A stretch of 32,232 bases of DNA, taken from positions 1-32,232 of the forward strand of contig VERF01000026.1 of assembly GCA_018882895.1 (NCBI GenBank). The letters are read 5' to 3'. This stretch comes from Candidatus Kapaibacterium sp. GTDB taxonomy: Bacteria > Bacteroidota > Ignavibacteria > Kapaibacteriales > Kapaibacteriaceae. This document shows positions 347 to 26,929 of the stretch, one piece after another. The position numbers and the translations under genes are program-made. The notes beneath the pieces are model-generated. The model did not search any database and was not told the DNA's origin. It saw nothing but the letters and a program-made list of their open reading frames with translations. Positions within the stretch are counted from its first letter, which is position 1. Each line of letters begins with the position of its first letter.

Positions 347-388
347 AAGGCATTTCGTAAGATGCAGGTACCGAAAATGATTCATAGT

Positions 389-407
389 TGACGTCAAACA
401 GACGTCA
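389..407 (+). promoter_or_regulatory. Twin ACGTC operator/promoter element
   Basis: TGACGTCA (389-396) and AGACGTCA (400-407) are two half-palindromic boxes 11 bp apart. They lie inside a 30-bp stretch that is identical, on the other strand, upstream of the gene starting at 22536. This perfect conservation outside coding sequence suggests a regulator site or core promoter. The TTGACG could serve as a -35-type element. No clear -10 or Bacteroidota -7 box can be fixed by eye. Confidence 0.55.
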
Positions 408-457
408 TGTTTCACATACTTTTCTAGGGTGTTGACAGAAAAAGAATCCATTTCCTC

Positions 458-991
458 TTGTCGCTCGCAGCGTGGGCGACACTCAGCGCGTGCCTTGCGC
501 CGCAAGTTGTGGCACAGAATCAGGTGTCAGCATCCCCGCCGGCTGCGAGTGGCATCGATTGCAAGTCGGAAGCTGCTCCACAAATCATATCGTGCTGGGT
601 TCAAAAGGGCGGTCCTAACCCGCCACCATACACCTACAATATGTGGTGGATCGGTGCGGACAGCAAGGATCCTTCTAAGGCAACTTGCCTCGCTCCCGGA
701 CAAGACTGCGCAAAGATCTGTGAGATTCGAAACCAAGGCACGATCGAACCAACCGGATACGGGTACATTCTCACGGTAACTCTCGATGCTACTGAGTACA
801 CTCGGAACGATGGAGCCAAGAGTACAGGTGGAGTTTTGGCACCTGGTACGTTCCTTGGACCGAATGAATGTGTTGTGCGCATTGATCAATGTCCGGAGCT
901 TCCCGAGTTGGAGTCGTTGCAATTAGACTTCAAAGGTGTTGCGGTGAGCGAGACAGGAACCGTATCTATGATTATCTCAATTACTCGATAG
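458..991 (+). CDS. Small exported Cys-containing protein with lost ATG
   Basis: This is an unrecognised protein of about 177 residues. The open frame extends upstream to a stop at 425-427. Reading from 437 gives a classic signal peptide: a basic start (RKR), a hydrophobic core and an AQ cleavage-like end near codon 27. The paralogous leader at 22536 has ATG exactly where this copy has AGA (437-439), so the ancestral start codon is gone. The only in-frame start left is TTG at 458, which aligns with a second Met of the paralogue and would give a leader without its basic end. The mature part has about seven cysteines (for example SCW, TCL, DCAKICE, NECVV and DQCPE), suggesting disulfides outside the cytoplasm. 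The next gene starts 5 bp downstream. The gene may be expressed weakly or be decaying. Confidence 0.6.
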   Translation: MSLAAWATLSACLAPQVVAQNQVSASPPAASGIDCKSEAAPQIISCWVQKGGPNPPPYTYNMWWIGADSKDPSKATCLAPGQDCAKICEIRNQGTIEPTGYGYILTVTLDATEYTRNDGAKSTGGVLAPGTFLGPNECVVRIDQCPELPELESLQLDFKGVAVSETGTVSMIISITR

Positions 992-996
992 GCTCA

Positions 997-2523
997 ATGA
1001 GATATGTTCTGAAACTGACAACCATTCTCTGGCTCTGTGCTGCGTATGCGGCGCAGGGCCAGGGTGATGTTAAGACCGGCGATGCCGTGGCGATCAAGAC
1101 CACTGACCGATTGAAGGGAGTGGTGCTGTGCTTTGCCCCATCGCAACTGTGCGGTGGATGCTCGCAGGATCTTGACGCCATTGCTTACGAGTGCCAGCAG
1201 CGTGGGGTCCCTCTGCGCGTGTATCTTCAAGACCCGGGATTTGGCAATGGGATGTACAGTCTGGCCGAAGACCGGCCGATGGTAACGATCCATGATGACG
1301 AGCTGCGCGTGTATGCGGGACTCTATCGCGTTGCGAGATCTCCGTTTGCTATGGTCGTTTCATCGAATGGGGTCGTTCAGAGCACCGGCATTCCGGGTGC
1401 AAAGGGATTTGACGTTGATCCGTTTCTCGAAGCCATTCGCAGCACGGCAACGGCAGGTAGCGGTGACGTCTTCTTCGGTCCCCGAGAAAATCGTGTGCGG
1501 TATGCTCGTACACTCTGTCCGATAGACGGCGACACCCTTGTTGAGAGGGCACTGACACGAGCGAGCATTGCATATTTCCCAGAGCGGAACAACACTCTCA
1601 TAATAACGCGTGATGAGTCGAAACGATTACTAGTGGTCGATAGCAATGGCAAAGGGATCTCCGAAAACCCGGCAATGCCATCAAACCTGCGTTACAGTTC
1701 GTCATATCCTGAGTGCTTCGCTCAGAGTGTTTCGGGCGACTCGGTTCTTACAACTGACTGGGCACATTTCGAACATCGCAAGTATATATTTTGGCGCAGT
1801 CTTCGTGATGGGAAGGCAGACACCATTCACGTCCCCGAAATACTAAATCAGCTTAATAGCAGAGAAAATCTGTTCCATCACTCGAGTAACACCATCTTCC
1901 ACGACTTGCGATTTGACGACCCGTCGACTGCTCGGAAACGTGAAGAACGATCGCTGATCATCGGACATGGAACGAGTGGAATCCGTCTGTTTGGACTCCG
2001 ACCTCAGATCTATGACACCGACAGCATTCTACCGATTGAATCAGGAACGAATTTTGCGCTGCATGGTGATCATCTATGGGTGATCTCTCGATTCCGCGAT
2101 TCACTCACACGCTACGACTTGCGCACGTGGGATTCCGTTACGGTACCGATTGGCTTGTCTTCCACGTACTACGTCGATCCGCGACCTGTGCTGACGGGGC
2201 ATTTTCGTGACCCCATGTCGCGGCGCAACATGCAAACCAAAATGTCGTATTCCAGTGGTGTTCTATCAGACCCGAATGGGCAGCACATCGCAGTGATGTA
2301 TGTGGTACCAATATCGAAGCTGACAGGTAAGGAGACGACGTCATCGTCATTTGACTACATCTTTGTCGTTGTTCTTGTCGACGCAGTCACCGGTCGTAAG
2401 GTCCGCGAGATCGAGTTCCCACAAGCCGTCATTCCACGGGGCTTTCGTAATGGACAGTTCCTTTGCGCAGCCTACTACGGATCATCAATCAAGGTGAAGT
2501 GGTATGATATGCCTGCTGAGTAG
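997..2523 (+). CDS. Exported thioredoxin-like / beta-propeller fusion protein
   Basis: This 508-residue protein has a signal peptide (MRYVLKLTTILWLCAAYA, cleavage near AQG). Residues about 30-165 look thioredoxin-like: a strand GVVLCFAP leads into a CGGC motif (Cys52, Cys55), and a later SPFAMVVSSNG stretch resembles the cis-proline strand. The remaining roughly 340 residues are strand-rich and read like the propeller folds common in exported Bacteroidota proteins, although I cannot count blades. The ATG at 997 is preferred over the longer frame from 889 because it gives the signal peptide and starts 5 bp after the previous stop. The last part is duplicated at 1-191. A thiol-dependent role in the envelope is inferred. 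A comparable pair of separate genes lies at 24991-26665. Confidence 0.7.
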   Translation: MRYVLKLTTILWLCAAYAAQGQGDVKTGDAVAIKTTDRLKGVVLCFAPSQLCGGCSQDLDAIAYECQQRGVPLRVYLQDPGFGNGMYSLAEDRPMVTIHDDELRVYAGLYRVARSPFAMVVSSNGVVQSTGIPGAKGFDVDPFLEAIRSTATAGSGDVFFGPRENRVRYARTLCPIDGDTLVERALTRASIAYFPERNNTLIITRDESKRLLVVDSNGKGISENPAMPSNLRYSSSYPECFAQSVSGDSVLTTDWAHFEHRKYIFWRSLRDGKADTIHVPEILNQLNSRENLFHHSSNTIFHDLRFDDPSTARKREERSLIIGHGTSGIRLFGLRPQIYDTDSILPIESGTNFALHGDHLWVISRFRDSLTRYDLRTWDSVTVPIGLSSTYYVDPRPVLTGHFRDPMSRRNMQTKMSYSSGVLSDPNGQHIAVMYVVPISKLTGKETTSSSFDYIFVVVLVDAVTGRKVREIEFPQAVIPRGFRNGQFLCAAYYGSSIKVKWYDMPAE

Positions 2524-11710: not shown

Positions 11711-12493
11711 ATGCTTTCGCCCGTGGTATCGGTAACGGACATCGTTCTTGATGTACATCAAGGAAAGAGTGTCGCGTTCCTGTCGGACGTGCACCTTGGT
11801 TATGGGGCTCGCCAGGACGATCGACAGCGGGAAGATCGGCTTTTGTCGGTTCTGCGGAACGTCTCGCAGATGTCATCCCACATCGTGATCGTTGGCGACC
11901 TCTTTGATTACTGGTTCGACTACGGCACGGTGGTGCCGTCTCGCTTTGTGCGCACGCTCTCCATGCTGCACGACCTTGCCGATGCTGGGATTGAGCTCAT
12001 TTACCTCATGGGCAATCACGATTTCGGCCACTACCGATACTTCGAGGAGGAACTCAAGATCCCGGTGATCCTCGGTGATGTGTCGGCAACCATAGGTTCA
12101 AAGCGATTCTACATTGCCCACGGCGATGGGAAGGCACACAATGACGCCGGATACCTTGTGCTGCGCGCTGTTCTGCGAAACCGCTTTGCTCAATGGATGT
12201 ATCGAAAGCTCCACCCCGACCTTGGCATTGCACTCGCATCGCGTACGTCGCACGGAAGCAGAGACCTGACCGGCGCACGTGATTACGGTCAACGCGACGG
12301 TCTGCGCGACTTTGCCGAAGCCCGCCTTGCCGAGGGATATGACGTCGTGGTGATGGGCCACCGTCACGTTGCCGAAGTCACACCGATCGGCTCCGGCCTA
12401 TACGTTAACCTTGGACACTGGCTGGGCCATCAGCCCACGTATGCAACGTATGATATCGAAAAGGGGCTTGTTTTACGCACCGTGACGGAGTGA
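11711..12493 (+). CDS. lpxH: UDP-2,3-diacylglucosamine diphosphatase
   Basis: LpxH hydrolyses UDP-2,3-diacylglucosamine to lipid X in lipid A synthesis at the inner face of the inner membrane. The 260-residue sequence has the calcineurin-type metallophosphoesterase motifs: SDVHLG (Asp26, His28), VGDLFDYW (62-69), MGNHD (100-104), IAHGDG (135-140) and GHRHV (216-220). LpxH and the related LpxG/LpxI enzymes differ; the D-x-H, GD, GNHD and GHxH set supports LpxH. The ATG at 11711 is chosen over the longer frame at 11630 because it leaves the divergent promoter region free. Its last 21 bp overlap the 3' end of the convergent AbiEii-like gene. Confidence 0.85.
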   Translation: MLSPVVSVTDIVLDVHQGKSVAFLSDVHLGYGARQDDRQREDRLLSVLRNVSQMSSHIVIVGDLFDYWFDYGTVVPSRFVRTLSMLHDLADAGIELIYLMGNHDFGHYRYFEEELKIPVILGDVSATIGSKRFYIAHGDGKAHNDAGYLVLRAVLRNRFAQWMYRKLHPDLGIALASRTSHGSRDLTGARDYGQRDGLRDFAEARLAEGYDVVVMGHRHVAEVTPIGSGLYVNLGHWLGHQPTYATYDIEKGLVLRTVTE

Positions 12494-13519
12494 GTGCACC
12501 AGTTCGTTTATCTCTTCCTGGAGCGTAACAAGACGTTTAGTAATCGACTCAAACGTTGGCGGGGTGAGCGTGAACATTCCCGCGTTGACCATGGCATTAT
12601 AGTCTCGCGATAGTGCCTCAAGTGTTATACCGTCGGGTATGAGCTTAAAGCTACCATTGAGGCATGTTGTATATGAAAACCCCCGCTCGAGATAAAAGGC
12701 ATCTTTGTGTCGAACGACTTCCTGCAGCAACCCAATGTCATGCGGCGTAATGTTTCCGTACTTGGAGTCGGCCAGAAGGGAGAGATCGTACCAGTGTCTC
12801 GATAGGCGGTCACTTCGCAACAGCTCGGGTTTCTTAATGCAGACGGCATGTATGAGTGTTGCCTTTTCCCAAAAGGTGCGCTTCGGAGACAGGACTTGCA
12901 CATCTGCAGAGGGCAGGATGAGGTCGCTCAAAAGATGTGCTATATCAGACGTAACATGATGAGTCTCAACAGGCTCGGCCGGATTCCGCGAACCAAGTTC
13001 CAAGAGGACCTGATCGGGTATGTACGAACCTTCAGACCGAATGACGCTTTGGTAGCGAAGGAATATTCGATCGGGGTCTGCCCATGTTATTCCAGCAGTT
13101 TCAGGTGGCAGCTCGTCCACAATGTGTCGCCGAAGTGCAGGTAGCACATGCTCTGTGACGAAATCGCGCAAATGGTCACGCAGCTGCTTGTTCCGTTTGT
13201 CGACTTGGCTTCGCGAAGGAAGTCGGTGTTCATCTGCGCTCATCACACCGAAGTCTCGATGGTCTACCGTGATGTCGATATCCTCAGAGAATCGGTGTAT
13301 CAGACCGTACACCTTTGAGAGCGACGTCCCTCCCTTGAATGCGAGGCGATGAGATAAGGGAAGAGAAAAGAGCTTGCTCAATATCCAGCATACCCACACA
13401 TCCTTCTCAAGCACTGTGGCAGATCGACCGAGTTCGAGAGCTAGTGTCTGAAGAATGTCGGCGCGCTCCTCAGGATCGAGCCAGAGGAAGTTAGCCTCAG
13501 GTTCCATACTCACGCTCAT
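12473..13519 (-). CDS. AbiEii/AbiGii-type nucleotidyltransferase toxin
   Basis: This is a 348-residue member of the AbiEii/AbiGii nucleotidyltransferase toxin family (DUF1814, the toxin half of AbiE-type toxin-antitoxin and phage-resistance systems). Motifs seen are the nucleotide-binding KGGTSLSK (62-69), the metal-binding SEDIDI (78-83), a conserved RTFWEKATLIHA segment and SRHWYDL. The start overlaps the end of the antitoxin gene, as usual in AbiE operons. Candidate starts are ATG at 13519, ATG at 13507 and TTG at 13525; all retain the motifs. The 3' end overlaps lpxH by 21 bp. Relatives transfer nucleotides to target RNA and block growth; the target here is unknown. Confidence 0.85.
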   Translation of the reverse strand: MSVSMEPEANFLWLDPEERADILQTLALELGRSATVLEKDVWVCWILSKLFSLPLSHRLAFKGGTSLSKVYGLIHRFSEDIDITVDHRDFGVMSADEHRLPSRSQVDKRNKQLRDHLRDFVTEHVLPALRRHIVDELPPETAGITWADPDRIFLRYQSVIRSEGSYIPDQVLLELGSRNPAEPVETHHVTSDIAHLLSDLILPSADVQVLSPKRTFWEKATLIHAVCIKKPELLRSDRLSRHWYDLSLLADSKYGNITPHDIGLLQEVVRHKDAFYLERGFSYTTCLNGSFKLIPDGITLEALSRDYNAMVNAGMFTLTPPTFESITKRLVTLQEEINELVHSLRHGA

Positions 13520-14117
13520 GCTCAACGAGGATGGTGCTCATCCATGCAGGTAAGTGATGTGCTACTCCTCGTAGGGCAGAAAGCTCTGCTTTACCGATCT
13601 GCATTCGAAGATGCTCGATGGTTAACGTCGAGACCTCGCTTCGTCCAAGGTACCACATGGCCGTAAGAGCTAGGCCCGCGGGCCTGTCCGCTAGTAAGAG
13701 TCTGCGTGGACTGACATTACGCAGAAGCACTACGGTGTTCCCCATGCGAATCTTACGAGCTGTACCTGTGGTGTAGTAGATGTGCTGTGTGGGAACCTGC
13801 GTTGTTAGTCCTAAGCGACGAGCGGCCTCAGCCCCGCATACTTGAAATGTTATACCAGAGTCGGCAAGGATACTTCGAAGAACATCTACTGGACTGGCAG
13901 CAATTGTGCCGACAAAACGATTGGGCTTCGGCCTCATGTACACTCCTCGAGAGACCCGCACGAGCAGTCCATCTTCGACCAGCCGACAGAGCACCTTGTC
14001 AACGGAAGCACGAGTCCCACAATCAAAAAATCGAGAGCAATGAACAGGTTGACCCAGGTCGAGCTGGCCAATGCGTTGGCGAATGGCCAATGCAGTATTA
14101 CTTCGCGTCGTTGACAT
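13497..14117 (-). CDS. AbiEi-like antitoxin / DNA-binding autoregulator
   Basis: This 206-residue protein is encoded just upstream of the AbiEii toxin and overlaps it. The N-terminal region (about 1-65) is a winged-helix-like block, with SRFFDCGTRASVDKVLCRLVEDGLLVRVSRGVYMRP reading as helix, recognition helix and wing. The rest (AAEAARRLGLTTQVPTQHIYYTTG, LLRNVSPRRL) matches the AbiEi/DUF6088 type of antitoxin. The ATG at 14117 is chosen because homology begins there and a perfect inverted repeat abuts it; the open frame to 14855 beyond this start is the antisense shadow of the ATP-grasp gene. AbiEi proteins are known to repress their own promoter through inverted repeats. Confidence 0.8.
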   Translation of the reverse strand: MSTTRSNTALAIRQRIGQLDLGQPVHCSRFFDCGTRASVDKVLCRLVEDGLLVRVSRGVYMRPKPNRFVGTIAASPVDVLRSILADSGITFQVCGAEAARRLGLTTQVPTQHIYYTTGTARKIRMGNTVVLLRNVSPRRLLLADRPAGLALTAMWYLGRSEVSTLTIEHLRMQIGKAELSALRGVAHHLPAWMSTILVEHEREYGT

Positions 14118-14145
14118 GTCAGAAATATAGCTTGTATTTCTGACA
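14117..14145 (-). promoter_or_regulatory. Perfect inverted-repeat operator of the AbiE pair
   Basis: Arms TGTCAGAAATA (14117-14127) and TATTTCTGACA (14135-14145) are exact reverse complements separated by 7 bp. The outer base of one arm is the first base of the antitoxin ATG. Read on the minus strand, a TATATT box lies about 7 bases before that ATG, which leaves almost no room for a leader. The site is therefore likely to be both promoter and operator, and the mRNA may be leaderless. Confidence 0.75.
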
Positions 14146-14228
14146 CTTTCGATACACGAAACTGATTCAACAGCAACAATCAGCGTATTTTTGCCGGGCA
14201 TCCCCAGCCCCCTACCTAGGAAACGCAT

Positions 14229-15161
14229 ATGAACAAGATCGGACTCCTCTTCGGCATGGAACAGTCGTTTCCGCCGGCACTTGTACAGGAGATCAACGCA
14301 CGTCACGCCGGAGTATCGGCCGAATTCGTCAAGATCGGGGCGGTGACGTTGGAGTCGCTCTTCGAGTACGACGTGATCCTTGACCGCATTTCGCAGGACG
14401 TGCCGTACTACCGCGCGATGCTCAAGCAGGCGGCCCTGAACGGAGTGCGCGTGGTGAACAATCCGTTCTGGTGGTCGGCCGACGATAAGTACTTCAACTA
14501 TGCGCTGGCCGATAAGGTTGGCATTCCGGTGCCGCGCACGGCCCTGCTGCCAAGCAAGAATCACCCGCCGGATACTACCGCCGAGTCTTTTCGCAATCTG
14601 GTCTATCCTCTGAACTGGCAGGAGATCTTCGATCATGTGGGCTTTCCGTCCTACCTGAAGCCATTCGATGGAGGGGGCTGGAAGCACGTGTATAAGGTCA
14701 ACTCGATCGACGAGTTCTTTGCAGCCTATTCCGAAACGCAGGACATCGTGATGACCCTCCAGGAGGGTATTGAGTTTACCGAATACTACCGCTGCTACTG
14801 CATCGGCAAGAAGCACGTACGCATCATGCCGTACGAGCCCCGTAACCCGCATCACCTGCGCTATCAGGCAGGCTTTGCGCCATCACCGGAGATGCTTGCC
14901 CGACTTGAAGAGTACTGCATCAAGATCTGCACGATGCTGGGCTACGAATTCAACACCGTCGAGTTCGCCGTCCGCGATGGCATCCCGTATGCAATTGACT
15001 ACATGAATCCTGCCCCCGACGCCGAACGCACATCGGTTCAGGAAGACAACTTCCAATGGGTGCTCAAGACCACGGCCGATTATCTCATCGAACTTGCCCA
15101 GCAAGGACGCCGTGTTCCAACGGAGTATAGTTGGAGCACGATGATTTCGAGTGACAAGTGA
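14229..15161 (+). CDS. ATP-grasp family enzyme (RimK/glutathione-synthetase-like)
   Basis: This 310-residue cytoplasmic protein resembles ATP-grasp carboxylate-amine ligases. It shows an N-terminal Rossmann-like part ending in DVILDRISQDVPYYR, the hinge NNPFWWSADDKYF, and the central ATP-grasp segment YLKPFDGGGWKHVYKV (ATP-binding Lys and Gly-rich loop). Further on are a QEGIEFTEYYRCYCIG strand and the metal-binding C-terminal part FNTVEFAVRDGIPYAIDYMNPAPD. It probably joins an acid and an amine using ATP, but the substrates are not apparent. AGGAAA lies 6 bases before the ATG. The stop codon lies in AGTGACAAGTGACG, which matches the heptamer unit of the array at 26780 in reverse. Confidence 0.8.
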   Translation: MNKIGLLFGMEQSFPPALVQEINARHAGVSAEFVKIGAVTLESLFEYDVILDRISQDVPYYRAMLKQAALNGVRVVNNPFWWSADDKYFNYALADKVGIPVPRTALLPSKNHPPDTTAESFRNLVYPLNWQEIFDHVGFPSYLKPFDGGGWKHVYKVNSIDEFFAAYSETQDIVMTLQEGIEFTEYYRCYCIGKKHVRIMPYEPRNPHHLRYQAGFAPSPEMLARLEEYCIKICTMLGYEFNTVEFAVRDGIPYAIDYMNPAPDAERTSVQEDNFQWVLKTTADYLIELAQQGRRVPTEYSWSTMISSDK

Positions 15162-15171
15162 CGAGAGACGA

Positions 15172-15276
15172 GTTACTAGGTACTAGTTACTAGGTACTAG
15201 TTACTAGGTACTAGTTACTAGTTACTAGGTACTAGTTACTAGGTACTAGTTACTAGTTACTAGTTACTAGGTACGG
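15172..15276. repeat. Seven-bp tandem array (GTTACTA/GGTACTA)
   Basis: About fifteen heptamers, mostly alternating GTTACTA and GGTACTA, begin 10 bp after the ATP-grasp stop codon. The unit contains TAG on both strands. Together with the palindromes and the octamer array it fills the 346-bp gap before hutH, which has no gene. Confidence 0.9.
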
Positions 15277-15293
15277 GGTACGAGAGACGGATC

Positions 15294-15405
15294 GTCATCC
15301 CGGCGGAGGCCGGGATCCATGTGTTGCCCATACAATGACGTATGGGCCCCGGCCTGCGCCGGGGCGACGTCAATCTCGTGGATTCCCGCTTTCGCGGGAA
15401 TGACG
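15294..15405. repeat. Three palindromic elements before hutH
   Basis: Three hairpins occur in series: ATCCCGGCGGAGGCCGGGAT (15299-15318), CCCCGGCCTGCGCCGGGG (about 15346-15364) and ATTCCCGCTTTCGCGGGAAT (15382-15401). They share GTCATC/GATGACG-type flanks, so they are three variants of the same interspersed element. Confidence 0.8.
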
Positions 15406-20429: not shown

Positions 20430-21131
20430 TTACTCATCACTCGTGGCTGGCTGATACGAGGATATCGCCTGCAAAAGCGCATCATCCTGAGTTCCAACCC
20501 CACTAATTGGGCCCTCATCGTGAAAGTCGCCGCGTGCAAAGGCTATCGTGGACATCGCATGGATTGGCAAACCACACTGCTTCAACAGTATGTCTAGCAT
20601 AGCATACATTGCCTCCGTTGTAATCCTACCTATAGAGAAGCTTAGGCCACTCATGGGACTATACACCTCAGTCAGAGTGTCACGCAGGTAGCAGTCAACG
20701 TAGATTATCTCATCGGCGGGGCACCATGTATACAACATCGCAGCTCTATGCTTGTCCACGCTAACGATAATGCCGTTATCCCGATAATCACCGGAATAGC
20801 ATACAAGAAGCGTCGCGACGCAGCTTGGACGAATGAGTAGGCCTTGCCTGACCAATGACGTGCTGTCCTGAGGATAGCGACTTGAAGTACACATCACCAG
20901 TGTATGAGTCGAATCCCTAATAACTTCTACGTGCGAGGCTTCGATTCGATGTTCACCGACGAATTCAGCCTTCTCGAAAATCACCCGTTGTCTGGGGTTT
21001 ACTTGGGTGCATTCACGGGTGGCTGTACAGCCACCCGCGAATGCGAACATCAATGCAGACGCAAAGCACCGGCAGATCCGCGAGATGCGGCTCAACTCGG
21101 TTGAACGAGTGTTCTTCTTCAATTCAAACAT
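20430..21131 (-). CDS. Orphan lipoprotein
   Basis: This 233-residue unrecognised protein has a basic N-terminus, a hydrophobic run (CFASALMFAFAGGC) and a lipobox-like AGGC, so it is predicted to be lipid-anchored. The mature part has scattered cysteines and a SVDKHRAAMLYTWCPADEIIYVDCYL strand-like region, with no known motif. The ATG at 21131 gives the signal; the upstream in-frame TTG at 21152 overlaps the previous stop. It lies 17 bp after the 417-residue lipoprotein gene and is probably cotranscribed. The codons of the lipobox contain a 36-bp near-perfect inverted repeat. Base composition is more AT-rich than in the flanking conserved genes, which suggests acquired or fast-evolving DNA. 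Confidence 0.6.
   Translation of the reverse strand: MFELKKNTRSTELSRISRICRCFASALMFAFAGGCTATRECTQVNPRQRVIFEKAEFVGEHRIEASHVEVIRDSTHTLVMCTSSRYPQDSTSLVRQGLLIRPSCVATLLVCYSGDYRDNGIIVSVDKHRAAMLYTWCPADEIIYVDCYLRDTLTEVYSPMSGLSFSIGRITTEAMYAMLDILLKQCGLPIHAMSTIAFARGDFHDEGPISGVGTQDDALLQAISSYQPATSDE
21009..21044. repeat. 36-bp near-perfect inverted repeat inside a gene
   Basis: Arms GCATTCACGGGTGGCTGT and ACAGCCACCCGCGAATGC are reverse complements except for one position, with no spacer. The element covers the lipobox codons of the 20430-21131 gene, so the mRNA can fold a very strong hairpin about 30 codons after the start. Both strands encode the same GGCTATRE peptide because of the symmetry. Confidence 0.85.
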
Positions 21132-21148
21132 AAAAGCACCATTTGAAT

Positions 21149-22402
21149 TCAATAAAATTGTGCTGCATTTCGGAAACCGGCCACAGTCATGCTTCCAAAT
21201 GACTCTACATCGCTGATCAAATCGTTAATTACCTGACGGTAAACTGGATCAGAAGACACAGACTGATATGCAGTCAGCAAGTCAATCAATTCCGATCGCA
21301 GGCTTTGTGGTATCAAGACCGACTCGGACGGGAGACTTTCATCCATCAGCACGTTCAGTGTGGACAAGTTAAACTTGAACAGTAGCGCAACTGCTCTGGC
21401 TTTTAGTATCAATGGTACATCAGAAGTATCGATGATCTGAGAGCAGTAATTGTAGTATGAAATCAGTTTTGTCCCCCACGACGTTTCAATGAGTGTCTGA
21501 TCTCGAAAGGCCCGTAACAGCACTGTGTCGAGGGCGCTCTCAATGGTGTCTTGACCGACAGCAATGAGGATGTCTCCATCTGTTCGATAACTCACAATTG
21601 CGCAACATTTCACCCTGTGTTGACAGTGCCATCCATCCTTCGGGTTTATCCAGGTACACTCGTCACCACCCATTGATGGACAGGCGTTCTCACATCCTTT
21701 ACCTCCACTACCAGGAGCAACACCCATGACCTGTTCAAATGAGCGGAATTGCGATCGATAGTGCGATGAACTAGCCAACCAGATCTTTGCATTCAATTCC
21801 GTGTTTCCACCTCCGTGACCCACGTCCTTCAATGGCTGATAGGCATCAGATGCTATGACAAGTATTGTTTCAACGTCATATCCGAGATCCTGCAGAGTCC
21901 TGGATGCAATGAATCCTATCGTGTTCGCGCTGACGCTTCCTGCCGTGCATGAAAGATCCTCGAATAAGGCAAAGTTTGACGACTTACTGCGTCGTATGAA
22001 CATATTGAACGCGTTGCCATCACGCTCATACTTGTACGTAGCGATTCCGACAACATCATCCAGGGTGAGCGGTCTATCAGTACTGGCCACACTACGTAAA
22101 AACAAGACGGCTGCGCCAAAGTCTGCAGCCTGAACTCCATGCTTCCCGAGTAATGATTGAATATCCTGAAGTTCCTGACCCGTAATCTCGGCGTCTAGAA
22201 TGCGTGGACTCTTTGTGACGCCAACGTGCTTCGCTGAAATGGCAATCGATTTCATGCCATCTCTCAGTTGCAGCACCTCTCGCTTGTGTCCTTGATGATC
22301 TAGTGCTGATGTGCTTGATTCGCTCGAACAGGAACACGCAAGAAGTACAGCGTAAACCGACAATCCGAGCGCAACGGGAATCTCCTTAAATGAAGATGTC
22401 AA
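21149..22402 (-). CDS. Cys-rich lipoprotein with CFI-box-like helical C-terminus
   Basis: This 417-residue protein has a lipoprotein-type signal (IPVALGLSVYAVLLAC, Cys about 27). The middle has a cysteine-rich segment (KGCENACPSMGGDECTWINPKDGWHCQHRVKCC) that suggests disulfides or a metal site. A later segment, LLRAFRDQTLIETSWGTKLISYYNYCSQII, resembles the helical repeat before CFI-box C-termini of exported proteins (pattern FRD-x2-L-x5-G-x3-SYY). This is a resemblance by eye. The only start that gives the signal is TTG at 22402, which overlaps the TGA of the 45-codon leader ORF as TTGA, pointing to translational coupling or to an old frameshift. The longer frame from 22585 only re-reads that leader in another frame. 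Confidence 0.55.
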   Translation of the reverse strand: MTSSFKEIPVALGLSVYAVLLACSCSSESSTSALDHQGHKREVLQLRDGMKSIAISAKHVGVTKSPRILDAEITGQELQDIQSLLGKHGVQAADFGAAVLFLRSVASTDRPLTLDDVVGIATYKYERDGNAFNMFIRRSKSSNFALFEDLSCTAGSVSANTIGFIASRTLQDLGYDVETILVIASDAYQPLKDVGHGGGNTELNAKIWLASSSHYRSQFRSFEQVMGVAPGSGGKGCENACPSMGGDECTWINPKDGWHCQHRVKCCAIVSYRTDGDILIAVGQDTIESALDTVLLRAFRDQTLIETSWGTKLISYYNYCSQIIDTSDVPLILKARAVALLFKFNLSTLNVLMDESLPSESVLIPQSLRSELIDLLTAYQSVSSDPVYRQVINDLISDVESFGSMTVAGFRNAAQFY

Positions 22403-22536
22403 AAGATCAGTAAACCTTCGACGCCGGTACGTTTGCCCCCACCCCCGTAAGGGTTCTGCGCCAGAGCATGCGGCGCACGGCACGTGTTGAGTGTCGCCCA
22501 GGCGGCGAGCGACATGAGGGAATGGATTCGTTTCAT
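22399..22536 (-). CDS. 45-residue leader ORF: signal peptide plus short tail
   Basis: ATG at 22536 opens a 45-codon frame: a complete signal peptide (MKRIHSLMSLAAWATL...APHALAQ), an AQ-N cleavage-like site and an 18-residue tail ending at TGA 22401-22399. The tail includes a YGGGGK run encoded by a G-rich tract. The leader is about 85% identical at DNA level, without gaps, to that of the gene at 437/458. The stop overlaps the TTG start of the following lipoprotein gene. It is either a real tiny exported peptide coupled to the next gene, or the remnant of an exported protein truncated by recombination or frameshift. Confidence 0.55.
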   Translation of the reverse strand: MKRIHSLMSLAAWATLNTCRAPHALAQNPYGGGGKRTGVEGLLIF

Positions 22537-22565
22537 ACCAACACCTTAGATAAATTTGAGAAACA

Positions 22566-22584
22566 TGACGTCTGTTTGACGTCA
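22566..22584 (-). promoter_or_regulatory. Twin ACGTC operator/promoter element, second copy
   Basis: On the minus strand, TGACGTCA (22584-22577) and AGACGTCA (22573-22566) lie 11 bp apart, about 30 bp before the leader ATG at 22536. They sit in a 30-bp stretch identical to that at 383-412. No GTGAC array precedes this copy, so the two elements can occur separately. Confidence 0.55.
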
Positions 22585-22755
22585 ACTATGTTCAGCAATG
22601 TATTCCGAGAGTATTTCCCGGCACCACCTCAAACATAGGGTCGGACTAACAAGACTCATGGCATAACAATCAGTGTTTTGGGACAGCGATAAATGGGGTC
22701 GATCTTCATGCTATACAGGTGCCTCAATCGGCCCCGCCGCAGGCCGGGATCAACG

Positions 22756-26749: not shown

Positions 26750-26776
26750 GATGACGGGCCTTCGCCGGGATGACGG
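26750..26776. repeat. GATGACGGGCCTTCGCCGGG palindrome
   Basis: A shortened copy of the interspersed element, with CCGG-type arms and the usual GATGACG linkers, lies immediately before the heptamer array. Confidence 0.65.
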
Positions 26777-26779
26777 AGC

Positions 26780-26929
26780 GTCACTTGTCACTCGTCACTC
26801 GTCACTCGTCACTTGTCACTCGTCACTTGTCACTCGTCACTCGTCACTCGTCACTTGTCACTTGTCACTCGTCACTCGTCACTTGTCACTCGTCACTCGT
26901 CACTTGTCACTCGTCACTTGTCACTCGTC
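26780..26929. repeat. Seven-bp tandem array (GTCACTC/GTCACTT)
   Basis: About 21 heptamers of GTCACTC and GTCACTT in irregular order fill 150 bp. The TGA stop of the minus-strand coiled-coil gene (26921-26923) lies inside the array. The open frames across it (Ser/Leu/Val/Thr/His-rich) are artefacts of the repeat. Confidence 0.92.

Follow-up and report, generated by a model that had tools for sequence, protein, structure and literature searches.

The shared block and its distribution

Contig VERF01000026.1 of Candidatus Kapaibacterium sp. (assembly GCA_018882895.1; positions 1 to 32,232, analysed in full and referred to here as the window) carries two copies of a 137-bp block that spans the region before a start codon and the signal peptide behind it. 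The question raised by this locus is why two genes should begin with nearly the same DNA when the proteins encoded further downstream are unrelated. The original prediction, made from the letters of the window, held that operator, promoter, start region and export signal together form a portable unit into which new mature domains can be plugged. Our analysis argues, with moderate confidence, for a portable export module that ends, in its best-preserved form, in a guanine homopolymer (poly-G) serving as a putative phase-variation switch. The host genome (G000), a draft of 2.57 Mb in 131 contigs, belongs to a genus placed in the Kapaibacteriaceae, Bacteroidota. The two copies in the window are:

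22454..22590, minus strand: cassette block copy A, 137 bp with dyad, ribosome-binding region, start and signal peptide (116 of 137 bases shared with copy B, 118 with copy C)
383..519, plus strand: cassette block copy B, 137 bp, with AGA at the position of the start codon (BLAST and alignment)

Copy A, read from 22590 to 22454, and copy B align without a gap; 116 of 137 bases are identical, as had been claimed, and the stretch of perfect identity at the beginning extends over 31 bases rather than 30. The pair is also the top inverted repeat of the window (85%, repeat search). When the whole draft genome was searched with the block by BLAST, a check that the original prediction had proposed, three strong matches were obtained, all with E-values of 3e-38 or better, namely copies A and B (3e-38 for the pair) and a third one, copy C (C62:12463-12599, E-value 6e-41). 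A weak additional match on contig C18 was rejected as chance similarity inside a gene. Copies A and B are followed by sequences that are 47-50% identical, which is the level of shuffled sequence, and there is no Pfam match in either protein; the downstream sequences of A, B and C taken together likewise resemble each other no more than shuffled DNA. Neither a limitation to two copies nor homology of the mature domains was found.

Among 119 genomes, consisting of the host and its relatives, strong copies outside the host were present only in G009 (Candidatus Kapaibacterium sp. ZLKRG19), a metagenome-assembled genome (MAG) of a sister from the same genus, where three copies reside on contig C49 (G1, G2 and G3) and one on contig C12 (G4). 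A 29-aa signal-peptide profile run against 149 genomes again retrieved only the host and G009, a degenerate DNA pattern applied to 85k genomes matched only G009 contigs, and the same pattern gave 0 matches in viral contigs. Altogether, seven full copies in two MAGs precede at least five different downstream proteins. These copy numbers are lower bounds: nearly all genomes compared are fragmented drafts, both carriers are MAGs or MAG-like, and repeats and homopolymer lengths are what short-read assembly handles worst.

Mosaic structure and replacement of 5' ends

The copies are mosaics in which promoter, signal peptide and mature part each have different nearest relatives. In the segment from -150 to -60 A/C/G3 form one group and G1/G2/G4 another, identity between the two is near background, and copy B belongs to neither; within a group, DNA identity is 81-95% from -150 to codon 28, copy B excepted upstream. 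A and C share about 100 bp more upstream of the block, where B does not match. In the operator segment, B groups with A/C/G3, and in the signal-peptide segment A, B, C, G1 and G3 are mutually 81-85% alike. Past the signal peptide, matches are confined to the pairs B/G1 and G2/G4 and, briefly, to A/C/G3. Copy B combines a type-1 dyad with the body of G1, a gene whose own promoter is of type 2; judging by diagnostic sites, G1 changes type somewhere between codons 3 and 16, apart from one exception further on.

Signal-peptidase cleavage sites were assigned by eye from the A-x-A pattern. That the match ends at this site proved roughly correct for A versus B only, where it stops about two codons after ALA/QN and VVA/QN (slashes mark the presumed site), whereas A and C match onwards to a G tract. 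The boundary does not coincide with the cleavage site; the junctions follow it by 2 to about 20 codons, and G2 and G4 remain identical for about 20 codons past the site.

The mature parts recur behind other 5' ends. Copy C has a body of 241 aa with 19 Cys that shares 79% identity with a protein encoded on contig C77 of G009, 43% with one from G010 and 39% with one from G018; in G010 and G018 the homolog begins with a very different signal peptide, and a partner gene of the same kind comes next. For the body of copy B, there is a 30% identical paralog on host contig C104 with the signal peptide MFKLIAVIAVAFVASTTLSNA, followed by a relative of the copy B partner gene (gene X), and the family has further relatives in G014 and G015. 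That the bodies recur elsewhere behind unrelated signal peptides, next to the same partner genes, supports a replacement of the 5' ends over a divergence of the bodies. On this comparison, the 5' module is shared or replaced among operons for predicted exported proteins. Together with the seven copies and their varied payloads, the reappearance of the same mature domains with other signal peptides bears out the proposal of a portable 5' module.

Pfam and NCBIfam contain no family for the Cys-rich bodies, phmmer gave no link between the C and B body families, and a sequence search of the PDB returned nothing for the copy C body and a best E-value of 0.9 for G1. A single Cys-rich superfamily comprising all payloads was considered and rejected, as profile comparison links some of them (L178-L185, 97%; C-T3, 64%) and not most.

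A poly-G tract between signal peptide and mature protein

Directly behind its signal peptide (...VLAQNPS), copy C has twelve guanines (G12) and then CTC TAG. This is the sole run of at least nine G on either strand of the host genome. When its length was varied in silico, 10, 13 or 16 G yielded an open frame of 274-276 codons, and all other lengths from 8 to 15 led to a stop at codons 34-47. Two loci of a sister species (G005), on contigs C143 (G12) and C9 (G13), have a tract at the same position, so that the G12, G12 and G13 runs are all located at ATG+90 to +92; the simulated opening lengths are 10, 13 and 16 G for C143 and 9, 12 and 15 G for C9. In all three loci the frame of the body is open up to the tract, and a one-base change would join the signal peptide to the Cys-rich protein. 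Translation in an OFF frame would stop at roughly 34-47 codons, although one locus reaches about 73. Two of the eight runs of at least nine G in G005 are such junction tracts. Two features of a poly-G contingency locus are present, a long homopolymer near the 5' end with an effect on the frame and a tract that is exceptional for the genome. On the G009 contig with the copy C body homolog (C77), the sequence begins about 4 bases beyond the place where the tract would be expected.

The upstream motif and a second cassette type

A search with the upstream part by itself brought out a 20-bp motif, TGTCYCAAAANNNYGATTGT, that stands at the left end of every cassette except B. At 0-1 mismatches the motif is dispersed in 4 of 11 genomes of the genus (control near 0). 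Some sites lie ahead of operons for exported proteins, others ahead of a small conserved gene, whose product has 66-67 aa in two genomes. The motif also flanks, on either side, a gene for a 522-535-aa protein with no more than a weak TPR hit, which is a candidate regulator of the motif operons. In loci L093 (G000 C84:46500-49200; 487-2094, minus strand) and L094 (G009 C90:52800-55400; 465-2033, minus strand) this gene lies between outward-facing motifs, one of which abuts its stop codon.

In G005 and G008, the motif precedes a second multi-copy cassette, the complete copies of which encode the signal peptide MKRFITSVALLVC...VAQPNTA. Of its five copies, two are cut by contig ends, two are complete copies in G005 with G12 and G13 at ATG+92, and the one on contig C73 of G008 has N over the junction.

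Cassette types 1-3 have dyads of different sequence at similar places, which raised the possibility of an RNA hairpin. Outside the cassettes, the dyad occurs at one mismatch or fewer in only one place; being nearly confined to the cassettes at this threshold, it was rejected as the operator of a genome-wide regulon. Folding of the 5' untranslated regions into RNA hairpins gave z-scores of +0.2 to -2.5, mostly no better than shuffles.

Poly-G tracts elsewhere in the family

Runs of at least nine G occur in 21 of 23 genomes of the family. We inspected 60 such regions. Of 45 interior tracts, seven precede, on the sense strand, a signal-peptide gene with at least seven Cys, and one does so on the other strand; these are raw counts obtained by reading the list, without a comparison to all genes. 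Several tracts sit in promoter-like spacers with a signal-peptide gene directly downstream, among them L212 and L205, which have TTTG and TAAATT boxes 19 nt apart by manual count. The body encoded at L205 is homologous to the G005 payloads, but it follows another signal peptide, and its tract lies in the promoter rather than at the junction.

Nine loci (L206, L212, L214, L215, L205, L166, L177, L178 and L184) have 9-13 G in promoter-like spacers before mostly Cys-rich signal-peptide genes, and these spacer runs look like promoter-type phase variation. L194 and L196 (G005 C58 and C89) share a repeat of about 200 bp that appears to be the 3' end of a gene. It runs into G11 or G12, and the sequences diverge thereafter, which suggests that poly-G also marks a junction in another setting. 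The original prediction, correct as to the sharing of a module, had been silent on the junction tract, on the upstream 20-bp motif and on poly-G beside other genes for secreted Cys-rich proteins of the family.

Proposed mechanism and alternative explanations

We propose that recombination, either gene conversion or ectopic crossover, copies a 5' expression-and-export module in front of several operons for exported proteins, where it would replace or precede the operons' own 5' ends. The module would consist of the 20-bp motif, a putative promoter, the dyad, the ribosome-binding region, the start codon and a signal peptide of about 26 aa. In its full form it would end in poly-G right behind the signal peptide, and slipped-strand changes of the tract would shift the frame such that one length in three is ON, with the signal peptide fused to the mature protein, and two are OFF. 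The payloads behind the G tracts are predicted to be Cys-rich secreted proteins that are encoded together with a larger partner gene.

Several observations weigh against such a switch. All three complete tracts were assembled in the OFF state, and their lengths stem from MAG assemblies, in which G runs of 12-13 are assembled unreliably. Many poly-G tracts in the family are patternless intergenic runs or lie at contig ends, without a context of the kind described above. Furthermore, three of the seven type-1/type-2 cassette genes (G1, G2 and B) are devoid of a G tract and the switch is therefore not a constant part of the module.

The last point, together with the proneness of homopolymers to error in short-read assemblies, would also suit a simpler account, which we consider possible yet rather unlikely, that the 5' block was spread by plain segmental duplication with gene conversion, the G tracts being incidental or mis-assembled and without a switch function. 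Sharing and mosaicism would need nothing further. This account does not sit well with the position of the only run of at least nine G in the host, exactly at the copy C junction, nor with the two loci of the sister species that have a tract at the same position and body frames open up to it. G runs are slippery, and the out-of-frame assembly of all three loci could also mean that programmed ribosomal or transcriptional slippage on the tract provides a constant low output of full-length protein without heritable switching. The shift needed is +1 in copy C and in G005 C143 and -1 in G005 C9; a fixed programme would not behave in this way, and programmed frameshifting is unlikely because the needed shift differs between loci, to the point that we give this explanation very little weight. 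We likewise give very little weight to the idea that the cassette, or its left motif, represents one end of a mobile element or a site-specific inversion site by which promoters move between genes. The inverse orientation of A and B and the outward motif pairs around the gene of about 1.6 kb for the TPR-like protein in two genomes would suit this idea, but no transposase or recombinase was found among the 20 window open reading frames (ORFs) scanned, and promoter-like boxes and genes follow the motif as expected for a regulatory site.

Within the proposal of a portable module with a terminal switch, a more far-reaching and distinctly doubtful extension is that the poly-G tract is switch and seam at once, in that it ends the module, toggles the payload and offers a short homologous joint for swapping secreted domains. 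If this were the case, Kapaibacteriaceae would maintain a phase-variable repertoire of Cys-rich secreted proteins assembled from interchangeable 5' modules and bodies.

Comparison with known systems

By analogy, the cassette works like several known systems; descent from any of them is not claimed. In Pseudomonas syringae, the 5' regulatory and export regions of type III effectors are reportedly re-used with new bodies by terminal reassortment, a process to which PMC6460904 refers. The cassette resembles these regions in being re-used, whereas its signal peptide is of the Sec type by inspection and neither a type III signal nor an hrp box is present, which makes it a case that works alike and not a member of that group.

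The description of the cassette as an undescribed mechanism was too strong, as the Borrelia erp genes have been described in the same terms: one promoter, leader and localization sequence is joined to many diverse bodies (PMC10016077). In the erp and ospE-ospF-elp genes ('upstream homology box'), a conserved promoter/operator, the leader and the first mature residues are combined with independent bodies through recombination (PMC10016077). Conserved promoter and leader DNA, unrelated bodies and body homologs with other 5' ends are found here as well. Unlike the erp products, which are lipoproteins encoded at one type of locus on cp32 prophages, the payloads described here are mostly Cys-rich proteins with predicted Sec export from scattered two-gene operons with junction poly-G; the leaders end in A-x-A/QN without a lipobox, there is no match in viral contigs, and the phylum is a different one. 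In Mycoplasma bovis, each vsp gene joins a promoter region of 150 bp and a signal peptide region of 75 bp to a variable body (PMC10504702), an arrangement similar to that of the cassette; vsp genes switch by site-specific inversion, whereas the cassette copies are scattered and the window ORFs scanned include no recombinase.

With respect to the tract, Campylobacter capC and capD carry poly-G, either in the promoter or within the coding region (PMC7168839), although in the case of capC tract length did not account for inactivation according to the authors (PMC7168839), and homopolymers at 5' ends lead to translational phase variation in Helicobacter canadensis (PMC2823697). One-base changes switch the frame in these genes (PMC7168839, PMC2823697), as they would here; the difference is that the tract described here separates a signal peptide shared by the copies from a body that varies. 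Shared promoter-leader modules and poly-G phase variation are each known mainly from animal pathogens, and here they would be combined at one junction. If the proposal holds, such variation would also benefit bacteria that are not known to be pathogens, which may face phages, predators or competitors. We found no paper on variation of this kind in Kapaibacteria in a literature search that left out most subscription papers and is weak evidence of novelty.

The two loci in the window

The features at the copy A locus, all on the minus strand, are:

22666..22685: 20-bp upstream motif TGTCYCAAAANNNYGATTGT, left end of cassette A (exact match, the sole one in the window)
22630..22637: TATGTTTG, candidate -7 box of the TAnnTTTG type, as read from the sequence; a similar box stands behind the motif at other loci
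22566..22584: dyad TGACGTCAAACAGACGTCA (sequence symmetry)
22399..22536: 45-codon leader ORF, codons 1-26 (22536-22459) being the signal peptide (ORF reading and signal-peptide profile)
22436..22446: GGGGGTGGGGG, the junction G tract of copy A, here interrupted (sequence comparison)
21149..22402: predicted gene for a 417-aa lipoprotein behind cassette A, with its own lipoprotein signal (homolog comparison)
20430..21152: next gene of the operon, for a 240-aa protein (overlapping frame)

Contrary to the expectation of a signal peptide plugged onto a mature domain, the leader ORF of copy A stops after 45 codons at a TGA, which overlaps the TTG with which a separate, intact gene for a 417-aa protein begins. 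This protein is probably a lipoprotein, and its homologs in G033 and G051 likewise have their own lipoprotein signal. Read in this way, cassette A contributes a predicted promoter region and a 45-codon leader ahead of a lipoprotein operon, and the leader ORF appears locked, its G tract being broken by a T.

The copy B block is followed, on the plus strand, by:

458..991: copy B body, a Cys-containing predicted exported protein, 79% identical to G009 copy G1, whose ATG is intact (comparison with G1)
997..2523: gene X, the 508-aa partner of the B-type operon (operon comparison)

A working signal-peptide fusion is not apparent here, there being no in-frame ATG. Copy B is probably decayed, because it reads AGA in place of the ATG of the other six copies and lacks the upstream motif, while its G009 counterpart is intact. 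An AlphaFold model of the copy B protein had a mean pLDDT of 39 and was unusable. Positions 1-238 and 2333-2570 of the window form a 238-bp repeat with 99% identity. As the contig begins inside the 3' end of a second copy of gene X, another B-type operon may have been situated just upstream of the contig start and been lost to assembly.

Long intergenic arrays of 14-16 bp tandem units are located at 2600-2940, 15148-15311 and 26757-26929 of the window, which also contains dispersed palindromic repeats of the CCCCGCGAAAGCGGGG type. At 12473-14855 on the minus strand, a gene for an AbiEii toxin-like protein adjoins one for a DUF6088/AbiEi-like protein, and the two probably constitute a type IV toxin-antitoxin pair.
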